From Hydrogenophaga sp. (GTDB lineage: Bacteria > Pseudomonadota > Gammaproteobacteria > Burkholderiales > Burkholderiaceae_C): a DNA stretch of 64,000 nucleotides. The stretch covers positions 128,949 to 192,948 of the forward strand of contig NZ_JAHCKL010000001.1 of the NCBI RefSeq assembly GCF_026125785.1, in the 5' to 3' direction. The notes beneath the pieces were generated by a model. That model saw only the letters and a program-made list of their open reading frames with translations. It was not told the DNA's origin and ran no database searches. Within the stretch, counting starts at the first letter, position 1; every line of letters starts with the position of its first letter. Of the stretch, positions 16,393-21,768 are shown piece by piece. The position numbers and the translations under genes were made by a program.

Positions 16393-18549
<2,157 letters not shown>

Positions 18550-18571: not shown

Positions 18572-18632
18572 CTCGAGCCCCATTCCGCTCGGCCTGAGCC
18601 CCATACCGTTCGGGCTGAGCCTGTCGAAGCCC
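18572..18632 (+). repeat. REP-like element with two 21-bp units, after scpA
   Basis: Two 21-bp units (18578-18598 and 18599-18619), beginning CCCCAT and ending CTGAG, are followed by the end piece CCTGTCGAAGCCC. This is the reverse complement of the units found at 18938-19114. It fills most of the spacer between scpA and the next gene. Confidence 0.85.
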
Positions 18633-18649: not shown

Positions 18650-20104
18650 GTGAAACCCTTCCACGTTTACCTGCTGCGCTGCCGCGACGGCTCCTACTAC
18701 GCCGGACACACCGACGAGTTGGAGTCCCGCCTGCTGCAGCACCAGACCGGCACCACGGGCTACACCGCCACGCGCAAACCGGTGGAGCTGGTCTGGCACG
18801 GCGAATTCGAGACCCGTGAGACGGCGCTGGCCTTTGAGCAGCGGCTCAAGGGTTGGTCGCGGGCGAAGAAGGAAGCACTGATCGCAGGGGACTGGGAGCG
18901 GGTTCAGGTTCTGGCGCGATCGGGACAGGGTGTGGGTGGGCTTCGACAGGCTCAGCCCGAACGGTATGGGGCTCGGTCCGAACCGAACGGGACTGAGCCC
19001 GAACGGAATGGGACTGAGCCAGAGCGGAATGGGGCTGAGCCCGCGCGGAGTGGGACTGAACCCGAGCGGAATGGGACTGAGTCCCCCTCCGTTCGCCCTG
19101 AGCTTGTCGAAGGGCTCACCCACGCCATCGCCGGCGGCACCCCCATGGCGCAGCGCCGCGCCATGGCCAAGGCGATCACGCTGCTCGAATCCACCCGAGC
19201 CGACCACCGCGCCCAGGGCGACGAACTGCTGACGGCGCTGCTGCCGCACACCGGACGGGCCTTCCGCCTGGGCATCAGTGGTGTGCCGGGTGTGGGCAAG
19301 AGCACCTTCATCGAAGCGCTGGGCCTGCATCTCATCGGCCTGGGGCACCGCGTTGCAGTGCTGACCATCGATCCTTCCAGCACCGTGTCCGGTGGCTCCA
19401 TCCTGGGTGACAAGACCCGTATGGAGAAGCTCTCGGTGCAGGAGCAGGCCTACATCCGGCCCAGCCCGTCCAGCGGCACGCTGGGCGGCGTGGCCGAGAA
19501 AACGCGCGAGGCCATGCTGGTCTGTGAGGCCGCGGGCTACGACATCGTCATCGTCGAGACCGTGGGCGTGGGCCAGAGCGAGACGGCCGTCAACGGCATG
19601 ACCGACATGTTCGTGCTGCTGCAACTGCCCAACGCTGGCGACGACCTGCAGGCGATCAAGAAGGGTGTGATGGAGCTGGCCGATCTGGTGGTGATCAACA
19701 AAGCGGACATCGATCCCGATGCAGCCACCCGCGCACGCGCTCAAATCACCTCGTCTTTGCGCCTGCTGGGCCAGCAGGGTCGGCCCGAGCACGCCCTGCA
19801 CGACGAGACGCTCTGGCATCCGCGCGTGATCCAGCTCAGTGCCTTGCTGGGGCAAGGGGTGGATGCCTTCTGGACCGAGGTCAGCACCTTCCGCGCGCTG
19901 CAGACCCGCAACGGCCGCCTGGCGGAGCGCCGCCGGCAACAGGCGCGCGCCTGGATGTGGGAGCGCATCGAGGCCGGCCTGAGACAGCGTTTTCGAGAAC
20001 ACCCGGCGGTGCGCGCCACCCTGGAAGAGACCACCGGGCGCGTGCTGGAAGGCACGCTGCCCGCCAGCACGGCAGCGCGCCAGCTGCTCGGGCTGTTCCA
20101 CTGA
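18650..20104 (+). CDS. GIY-YIG domain fused to MeaB-type GTPase (methylmalonyl-CoA mutase chaperone) by a repeat linker
   Basis: 484 residues in one uninterrupted frame. Residues 1 to about 90 are a complete GIY-YIG domain of the small YhbQ/UPF0213 type (VYLLRC, YYAGHT, then a helix with [15 protein letters not shown]). Residues 98-155 are encoded by a REP-like element and read as seven-residue repeats such as EPERNGT. From about 157 the protein is MeaB/ArgK: Walker [10 protein letters not shown] at 211-219, [21 protein letters not shown] and a C-terminal dimerisation helix. MeaB loads and protects adenosylcobalamin mutase, matching scpA just upstream. A separate MeaB could only start at ATG 19145, losing a few conserved residues; the GTG at 18650 starts the fusion. 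In relatives I would expect two genes. Confidence 0.85.
18938..19114 (+). repeat. REP-like inverted repeat expanded by six 21-bp tandem units, inside a coding region
   Basis: The left end GGGCTTCGACAGG (18938-18950) and right end (CTGAGCTTGTCGAAGGG, 19098-19114) are near-inverted copies. Between them lie six 21-bp units starting at 18951, 18972, 18993, 19014, 19035 and 19056, with consensus CTGAGCCCGAACGGAATGGG followed by A or G, and a transitional unit at 19077-19097. Unit length divisible by three keeps the frame open, so it is translated as a 7-residue repeat. Confidence 0.92.
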
Positions 20105-20124: not shown

Positions 20125-21657
20125 ATGCAAGACATCCTGCAACAACTCGAAGAGAAGCGCGCCGCCGCGCGCCTGGGCGGTGGCGAGAAGCGCATTGCTG
20201 CCCAGCACGCCAAGGGCAAACTGACCGCGCGCGAGCGACTGGAGGTGCTGCTTGATGAGGGCACGTTCGAAGAATGGGACATGTTCGTCGAGCACCGCTG
20301 CACCGACTTCGGCATGCAGGACAACAAGATCCCCGGCGACGGTGTGGTGACCGGCTACGGCATGATCAATGGCCGCCTGGTGTTCGTGTTCAGCCAGGAC
20401 TTCACGGTGTTTGGCGGAGCGCTTTCAGAGGCCCACGCCGAGAAGATCTGCAAGATCATGGACCAGGCGATGAAGGTCGGCGCGCCGGTGATCGGCCTCA
20501 ACGACTCCGGTGGCGCACGCATCCAGGAAGGCGTGGCCTCTCTGGGCGGTTACGCAGAGGTGTTCCAGCGCAACGTGATGGCCAGCGGCGTGATTCCGCA
20601 GATCAGCATGATCATGGGGCCGTCGGCCGGTGGCGCGGTGTACTCGCCGGCCATGACCGATTTCATCTTCATGGTCAAGGACTCGAGCTACATGTTCGTG
20701 ACCGGTCCAGAGGTGGTGAAGACGGTGACGCACGAGGAGGTCACCGCCGAGGAACTGGGTGGTGCCACCACCCACACCACCCGCAGTGGCGTGGCCGATC
20801 TGGCCTTCGAGAACGACGTGGAGGCGCTGCTGATGCTGCGCCGGCTGTACAACTACCTGCCGCTGAACAACCGCGAGAAGGCGCCGGTGCGCCCCAGCGG
20901 CGACCCGATCGACCGCGCCGAACTCAGCCTGGACACGCTGGTGCCGGAGAACCCGAACAAGCCGTACGACATGAAAGAGCTGATCCTCAAGACGGTCGAT
21001 GACGGCGACTTCTTCGAGATCCAGCCCGACTACGCCAAGAACATCATCGTGGGCTTTGCGCGCATGGATGGCCAGACGGTGGGCATCGTGGCCAACCAGC
21101 CGCTGGTGCTCGCCGGCTGCCTGGACATCAAGAGCTCCATCAAGGCGGCGCGCTTCGTGCGTTTCTGCGATGCCTTCAACATCCCGGTCGTCACCTTCGT
21201 GGACGTGCCGGGCTTCATGCCCGGCACCAGCCAAGAGTACGGCGGGATCATCAAGCACGGCGCCAAGCTGCTCTACGCCTATGCCGAGTGCACGGTGCCC
21301 AAGATCACCGTGATCACGCGCAAGGCCTATGGCGGCGCGTACGACGTGATGAGCTCCAAGCACCTGCGCGGCGACGTCAACTTTGCCTGGCCCAACGCGG
21401 AGATCGCGGTCATGGGTGCCAAGGGCGCCGTGGAGATCATCTTCCGCGAAGAGAAGAAGGATCCGGCCAAGCTCGCGCAACGCGAGGCCGAGTACAAGGC
21501 CCGTTTCGCCAACCCCTTCGTGGCCGGCGCACGCGGTTTCATCGACGACGTCATCCTGCCGCACGAGACACGCAAGCGTATCTGCCGTTCGCTGGTGATG
21601 CTGAAAGACAAGAAGCTGGAGAACCCGTGGCGCAAGCACGGAAACATCCCTCTGTGA
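20125..21657 (+). CDS. pccB: propionyl-CoA carboxylase, beta (carboxyltransferase) subunit
   Basis: 510 residues, normal for PccB. It transfers carboxyl from biotin to propionyl-CoA, giving (S)-methylmalonyl-CoA. The paired crotonase-like halves show the oxyanion glycines in [14 protein letters not shown] and [13 protein letters not shown] (N-half), and in [20 protein letters not shown] and [13 protein letters not shown] (C-half). The aspartate of the propionyl-specific acyl pocket cannot be placed by eye. The ATG at 20125 follows TCTGGAGCAAGAAACC; the frame runs further upstream into the MeaB gene as a shadow. It starts 20 bp after the fusion gene, so co-transcription is likely. Confidence 0.96.
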
Positions 21658-21666
21658 CCAAGACCG

Positions 21667-21749
21667 CCGTTCGCCCCGAGCTTGTCGAGGGGCCTTGCAA
21701 AAATTGATGACCGGTCGGCGCAGGGCTTCGACAGGCTCGGCCCGAACGG
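21667..21749 (+). repeat. REP-like inverted pair between pccB and pccA
   Basis: One copy at 21667-21692 (containing GAGCTTGTCGAGGGG) faces a second at 21723-21749 (containing GGGCTTCGACAGGCTCGG) across about 30 bp. They are the two end types seen at 18938-19114, so the RNA between pccB and pccA can fold into a long hairpin. The pair ends 19 bp before the pccA start. Confidence 0.9.
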
Positions 21750-21768
21750 TTGGAAGAAGGAAGCCACC

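Follow-up and report, generated by a model that had tools for sequence, protein, structure and literature searches.

How does one open reading frame come to encode a nuclease domain, a tract written by a bacterial repeat and a complete metabolic GTPase? The question is raised by a Hydrogenophaga sp. contig (NZ_JAHCKL010000001.1), of which a stretch of 64,000 nucleotides, referred to here as the window, was analysed. A first-pass annotation made from its letters had read the frame at 18650..20104 as a full GIY-YIG domain, about 58 residues of translated repeat and a full MeaB, and had proposed that insertion and expansion of the repeat joined two neighbouring genes into a new protein architecture.

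One frame for a nuclease domain, a repeat and a GTPase

In the ORF list of the window, 18650..20104 (+) is a single open frame of 484 codons with a GTG start, and a profile search of this fused frame bears out both domains over their cut-offs: residues 4-74 match PF01541 (54.1 bits; cut-off 22.6) and residues 172-451 match PF03308 (363.6 bits; cut-off 23.1). The C-terminal part is also MeaB by TIGR00750 (333.9 bits; cut-off 240.75) and NF006958 (487.2; cut-off 329), approximately the last 330 residues being MeaB by curated models. MeaB proteins have the P-loop GTPase motif GxPGxGKST and their gene is next to that for methylmalonyl-CoA mutase (MCM). Here the P-loop, GVPGVGKST, is invariant in an alignment of 18, and directly 5' is the ORF at 16393..18549 (+), our junction anchor, which from its own sequence and operon we take to be the MCM gene; the operon continues with 20125..21657 (+), an ORF listed with an upstream start and presumably, from its sequence, encoding a PccB-like carboxylase beta subunit. 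A full-length domain directly after the MCM gene is as in MeaB/ArgK, the G-protein chaperone of MCM, whereas the N-terminal nuclease domain, the predicted disordered tether written by a repeat and the loss of its own start codon are not. Similarly, the nuclease domain is that of the UPF0213-type GIY-YIG proteins PDB 1zg2 and 1ywl (E 2.7e-13 and 4.4e-12), which, unlike the fusion, are short single chains of 107 and 96 residues.

The GIY-YIG (hereafter GIY) domain (residues 1-91, GTG start; 18650..18922, +; presumed catalytic residues conserved) lies between two cores of a short palindromic repeat, here called type-1 REP: one on the - strand at 18606..18628, part of a 21-bp repeat stretch at 18575-18621, the other on the + strand at 18942..18964 and translated within the linker. 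The linker (residues 92-149; 18923..19096, +) further contains a tandem array of 6.1 units of 21 bp (18954-19081, +) that resemble the REP tail, and a closing core in the opposite orientation (19089..19111, -) is read as VRPELVEG; the MeaB part, stop codon included, is 19097..20104 (+). AlphaFold2, with 18 sequences in the alignment, gave the fusion a mean pLDDT of 76.3, with approximately 90 for GIY (1-91), below 50 for residues 92-149, MeaB helices from 153 and mostly 60-95 in the MeaB part apart from a low stretch at 244-256. The linker, predicted on this model to be disordered between two folded domains, fits the length of about 58 residues originally given for it. A similar anatomy of a REP, degenerate REP-ending units and an inverted REP occurs in many of 20 other REP-bearing stretches of the same genome; it is therefore not the array in the linker that is special but its being read in frame.

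A further REP (+, 1 mismatch) is at about 21727-21749, between carboxylase genes, with a REP-like stretch just 5' of it and VRPELVEG in an ORF translation there. The ORF of the gene after the PccB-like gene starts within the same part of the window (21660-21760), and this is a possible second REP-written N-terminus.

The source genome (G000) is a draft assembly in 46 contigs, 93.8% complete, and a tandem repeat within such an assembly would suit an assembly or sequencing error in the repeat. Such an error is scarcely credible here, as the fusion recurs, with linkers of different length, in assemblies made independently, those of isolates among them. Relatives came from a contig scan (the best 80 of 546 confirmed loci) and from 299 genomes of the family, and the fused architecture is present in records named Hydrogenophaga, Acidovorax, Polaromonas, Variovorax, Ramlibacter, Pelomonas, Piscinibacter and Rhizobacter. 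With identical loci removed there are 32 distinct fused loci, the linkers of which range from 141 to 672 nt and are of 27 lengths, every one divisible by three; because of this number of loci and of in-frame lengths the fusion is no assembly accident, and, found at 32 loci, it is not the novelty of this genome for which it had been taken. That the linker is in phase and free of stops, originally said of the window, extends to all 32 loci: there is no in-frame stop in 2909 linker codons, with 37 and 125 in the other two forward frames. Fused loci are in frame by definition, and the fair figure is either 32 in-frame cases among 36 GIY-MeaB adjacencies (p 7e-12 against an expectation of 1/3, the rows being related by descent) or 20 of 23 in the 299-genome sample, which was chosen independently of the fusion. 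In that sample a GIY domain match is present in 37 genomes, with at least 60% identity in 23; GIY is upstream of MeaB in 23 genomes, these being 22 of the 23 strong matches together with G071, whose GIY is degenerate, and in 20 of them, though not in the other three, there is a single open frame.

Is the nuclease part of such proteins merely tolerated? Estimates of dN/dS by NG86, rough at this divergence, are 0.05-0.19 for GIY among the six pairs whose MeaBs are most alike; medians over 82 pairs are 0.25 for GIY and 0.30 for MeaB. The catalytic residues of GIY-YIG nucleases are Tyr, Tyr, Arg, His and Glu; Y7, Y17, R27, H31, E63 and K67 are kept in 31 or 32 of the 32 fused loci. These comparisons indicate that the GIY part is under purifying selection with its presumed catalytic residues intact, and that the fusion is old, with a frame kept open by selection and with both domains selected.

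Occupied and empty MCM-MeaB junctions

The first-pass annotation held that MeaB without the fusion would have only an internal ATG to start from, at the cost of conserved residues, and this is confirmed by relatives without GIY, in many of which MeaB has its start codon 15 codons before the equivalent of M166. In the window no ATG, GTG or TTG stands in frame between a GTG 71 codons upstream of M166 and the ATG of M166 itself, and the MeaB part has no intact start of its own. It is conceivable that no fusion protein exists in the cell, with MeaB being initiated internally at M166 or at a GTG in the linker and the open frame being a by-product of GC-rich, stop-poor repeats; an ATG is indeed available at M166, and the linkers of many fused relatives contain start codons in frame. 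We consider this very improbable, since initiation at M166 would remove the predicted helix 153-162, the region of which is encoded by GIY-less MeaBs, and since by-product status sits badly with 32 of 32 stop-free linkers that are multiples of three when the other forward frames do have stops.

Comparison with relatives, where the two genes had been expected to be separate, found GIY adjoining MeaB yet separate from it in four (L120, L123, L098 and L144, the last with a degenerate GIY), beside the 32 loci where they are fused. What does the junction look like where there is no GIY? The distance from the MCM stop to the codon aligned with M166 is at most 115 nt in 61 of 94 GIY-less junction rows and 41 nt in 28 of them, the MCM stop and MeaB start overlapping in those 41-nt junctions displayed; the remaining ones are longer, up to 1695 nt. 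A type-1 REP core is absent from 88 of the 94 GIY-less rows and present in 40 of 48 GIY-bearing ones, some loci being included in these rows under two ids. The six exceptions among the GIY-less rows are L047, L053, L065, L152, L144 and L153, with L144 and L153 being the one locus with a degenerate GIY. Of the eight exceptions on the other side, four (L054, L122, L126 and L133) have a core of variant sequence; L021 and L132 belong to one genome, the linker of which contains two such variants; and L044 and L135 have REP-like linker cores by a looser count. At many GIY-bearing junctions the order is a - core, GIY and a + core; at others all the cores are downstream, or the first of those downstream is on the - strand.

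Because GIY-less junctions are mostly REP-free and GIY-bearing ones mostly REP-bearing, what was inserted was probably GIY together with its REPs, rather than a repeat joining two old neighbours. The repeat as sole cause of the fusion is rejected since the GIY gene itself arrives with REPs, and the part of the original proposal in which a repeat was inserted between neighbouring genes finds no support. The other part, extension through the repeat, is plausible since in three of the unfused relatives (L120, L123 and L098), where the GIY stop overlaps the MeaB start (GTGA/ATGA), REPs are already within the GIY tail; the inferred step would be for such a REP-bearing tail to read on into MeaB. In two Hydrogenophaga loci with no GIY (L047 and L053) the MeaB N-terminus is itself REP-written (SVRSEPVEG and RSEPVEG), an apparent footprint of a lost GIY unit.

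The MCM-MeaB junction is thus a single fixed site, occupied in some genomes and empty in others, and this invites comparison with the free-standing GIY-YIG homing endonucleases, of which I-TevI and the Seg enzymes are representative. Shared with these are the GIY-YIG domain, the fixed intergenic site and a patchy presence; the inverted REP ends, the many REPs elsewhere in the genome and the metabolic fusion are different. Did a homing enzyme cut empty junctions and re-copy itself there, the REPs being merely its ends? GIY-YIG is a classical homing nuclease fold, all MeaB-linked loci examined are at one site, and on a MeaB tree of 125 rows, 36 of them with GIY, made by a quick method, at least 22 changes of GIY state are required, nine of them forced by starred branches. 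Set against this, distances for GIY and MeaB agree (Mantel r 0.74, reached in 0 of 2000 permutations; 0.72 and 0.61 within two subgroups, with 0 and 1 of 2000), and members of the GIY clade are found at other genomic sites too. Flanking DNA near the junction does not cluster by GIY state, i.e. it gives no signal of co-conversion, and homing in the form that includes co-conversion was set aside. The agreement of distances fits an old insertion followed by losses as well as it does repeated gains, and on balance homing appears on the unlikely side, without being far-fetched.

Two genomes have stand-alone genes of the fused-GIY clade (L143 and L147) between genes which we take from their sequences to encode a thiolase and an SDR; the L143 GIY ORF overlaps the ends of both neighbours and that of L147 overlaps the SDR gene. 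Type-2 REPs, the variant described below, adjoin the stand-alone GIY in G066. When plasmids were searched with the GIY domain, 27 records matched, each at below 60% identity.

The explanation that we lean towards, with some reserve, is that the fusion was made by a REP-associated putative nuclease unit which lodged at the MCM-MeaB junction and had its tail extended into MeaB. The unit, a small GIY-YIG gene with REPs in opposite orientation at its two ends (REP-, GIY, REP+), would have lodged at the MCM stop/MeaB start in the propionate operon; its REP-bearing tail, stop-free in the right phase, would have been extended in frame into MeaB; and with the start codon of MeaB gone the product would be one protein of about 53 kDa comprising nuclease, disordered repeat-written tether and GTPase chaperone. 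The putative nuclease might cut or nick REP DNA, which would lead to copying of repeats or to transfer of the unit to other places. As loss of frame would cost the cell its MeaB, fusion would retain the nuclease in the genome. MeaB, we assume, still acts as a chaperone, and nothing requires the nuclease to have taken on a new part in metabolism. We infer, in short, a nuclease partner of REPs, its action on them being putative, that has acquired a permanent seat through MeaB.

Repeat number and the GIY-YIG lineage

If the nuclease serves the repeats, do their numbers go together? The type-1 core, TTCGACARGCTCAGNNCGAACGG, has 94 exact copies in G000 and the reversed control pattern has none. Among the 299 family genomes, 18 of 23 with GIY have at least 20 type-1 REPs, versus 11 of 276 without (p 3e-17), where G066 is among the 23 only by virtue of its stand-alone GIY gene and the GIY-less set includes 14 genomes with a weaker GIY match (at most 45% identity), G071 with its degenerate GIY being one. 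A type-2 or variant core, TTCGATACCTCAGNNCGAACGG, defined after inspection of GIY-bearing junctions and then counted in all genomes, is present in 137, 50 and 81 copies in G045, G066 and G271, which are low in type 1, and with both types taken together 21 of the 23 GIY-bearing genomes have at least 20 REPs; those with few are G015 (5) and G100 (7). In 15 of the 16 genera that hold both states the mean REP number (both types) is higher with GIY, a comparison not fully corrected for phylogeny. The GIYs of L132, L133, L135 and L054 group together (support 92/81); L054 and L133 have a variant core at the junction, and G045 (L133), G246 (L135) and G271 (L132) are variant-rich. The GIYs of L122 and L126, which likewise have variant-core junctions, are elsewhere in the GIY tree.

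Counting against the link are the 11 GIY-less genomes rich in type-1 REPs, which include G114 (69 copies), G119 (147) and G130 (115), and G168 and G083, also among these 11, hold 117 and 36 type-2 copies besides. The 11 genomes mean that REPs persist, or spread, without this GIY gene. The others of the set are G177, G029 and four more; some of the 11 have GIY-bearing congeners and some do not.

Known partners of REPs are the REP-associated tyrosine transposases (RAYTs), which act on their own repeats, and the putative nuclease would do likewise. As with REP/REPIN-RAYT systems there are short palindromes in tens to hundreds of copies, often as inverted pairs, with the gene for a partner enzyme between copies; in the window and in many relatives, too, REPs of the genome concerned stand in opposite orientation on the two sides of an enzyme gene. 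Unlike them the partner is a GIY-YIG nuclease and not an HUH tyrosine transposase, and RAYT-like genes are present irrespective of REP count: of 70 genomes chosen, some rich in REPs and some free of them, 65 have matches to NF047646 at E <= 0.001 and 21 have matches above the curated cut-off. That RAYT drives these REPs is rejected, since its presence, judged by eye, does not follow REP number. (G015, which has GIY and only 5 type-1 REPs, has seven NF047646 matches, three of them over cut-off.) By our own reading type-1 REP is without the GTAG tag described in PMC3733652. Other GIY-YIG genes were considered as an explanation for REP-rich genomes without GIY: in 16 GIY-less genomes PF01541 matched 15 long frames of 660-989 aa, which we take to be UvrC, and six shorter ones, four over cut-off. 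In G000 the only GIY-YIG matches are the fused one and an 819-aa frame, again taken as UvrC, and any small GIY-YIG enzyme that might serve its REPs would therefore be this fusion.

Might the REPs instead be bystanders in intergenic DNA, with a GIY-YIG domain having been recruited to work with MeaB in propionate metabolism or DNA repair, for instance as a GTP-switched nuclease? The long conservation of frame and presumed catalytic residues is what such a host function would lead one to expect, as is the fact that fused loci always adjoin MeaB with the two parts agreeing in their distances. A domain serving the host in this way is not so readily reconciled with its patchy occurrence, seen in the many changes of state on the MeaB tree, with the fact that this GIY clade is also found next to REPs at unrelated sites (L143, L147 and loci of a second family) or with a REP number that follows the GIY lineage, and we regard recruitment as unlikely.

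Small GIY-YIG genes between inverted repeats

The second family came to light through the repeat. Type-1 REP is present in 16 of 398 genomes of the phylum, a sample with 12 genomes from the family considered above, and seven of the 16 are in one family, f45, which we take to be Sphingomonadaceae. Searched with PF01541, 21 genomes (18 from f45) gave 80 matches; with 21 frames longer than 600 aa taken as UvrC, 59 were examined, and 17 of these small GIYs join the fused ones in a clade of 54 rows (support 95/87), on a tree of 94 columns with many forks unresolved and one long odd row (L218). With up to 1 mismatch allowed, a type-1 core lies no farther than 300 bp from 11 of the 17 clade members and from none of the 42 others (p 4e-8). 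In eight of the nine clade loci flanked on both sides (L207 by way of one 2-mismatch core) the nearest cores are - upstream and + downstream, the arrangement also seen in the window; the ninth, L201, has a + core on both sides. Clade members L184, L187, L189, L211 and L229 have different palindromes on both sides.

A test blind to the identity of the repeat, an exact inverted repeat of at least 12 nt between the 250 bp on each side of the GIY domain, was positive for 47 of the 59 small GIY loci, with repeats of up to 38 nt: 13 of the 17 in the clade and 34 of the 42 outside it. Farther out in the same loci the figure is 2 of 118, and for short ORFs and random positions, both from 20 stretches of the 21-genome set rather than from a phylum-wide sample, it is 1 of 86 and 265 of 7560 (12 nt). 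With one genome from each of 75 families of the phylum, 20 of 69 small GIY loci are so flanked, the 69 being from at least 77 non-UvrC matches and including L299 and L323 (miscut or incomplete), scored as misses, and L308, which is short. Part of the small GIY-YIG genes, therefore, but not all, are repeat-flanked. The repeats that flank non-clade genes, for example GTCATTCCCGCGAAAGCGGGAATCC, look unrelated in sequence, which suggests several enzyme-repeat pairs. Among the non-clade loci in L180-L243 the unrelated flanking palindromes include GTCATTCCCGCG...CGGGAATCC and CGTCACCCCGGACTTG.

Repeats within genes have precedents. The palindromic RPE of Rickettsia occur inside protein genes, and the present repeat resembles them in being translated in frame within such a gene; it differs in that here the element brings a nuclease gene of its own and joins it to a host protein. 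The RPE of R. conorii, and REPs within genes, are mentioned in PMC3733652, which also has a CGTC super-family of repeats apparently without a dedicated transposase. The betaproteobacterial BRE, which is about 90 bp long and recurs in Bordetella and Comamonadaceae, is sometimes within genes (PMC3110155); it is compared with REP here by description, the section concerned printing no BRE sequence and naming no partner enzyme.

Might the non-RAYT families of palindromic repeats in Proteobacteria have their missing partner enzymes in small GIY-YIG genes, each lineage sitting between, and propagating, its own repeat, with the MeaB fusion being one such nuclease made permanent on a housekeeping protein? 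For us this generalization is finely poised between acceptance and doubt. Among the literature matches listed, from a search with no bioRxiv and few subscription papers, none tied GIY-YIG or UPF0213 to MeaB or to bacterial palindromic repeats; the wider partnership is apparently undescribed so far and, as coverage was partial, its novelty is provisional.

Some families of bacterial palindromic repeats are without a known propagating enzyme. A putative nuclease lineage that tracks repeat number, with its genes inside repeat pairs, makes the question of that enzyme testable in vitro. As to MeaB, its fusion shows how, through a repeat translatable in frame, a gene of mobile type can become a fixed part of a metabolic protein.
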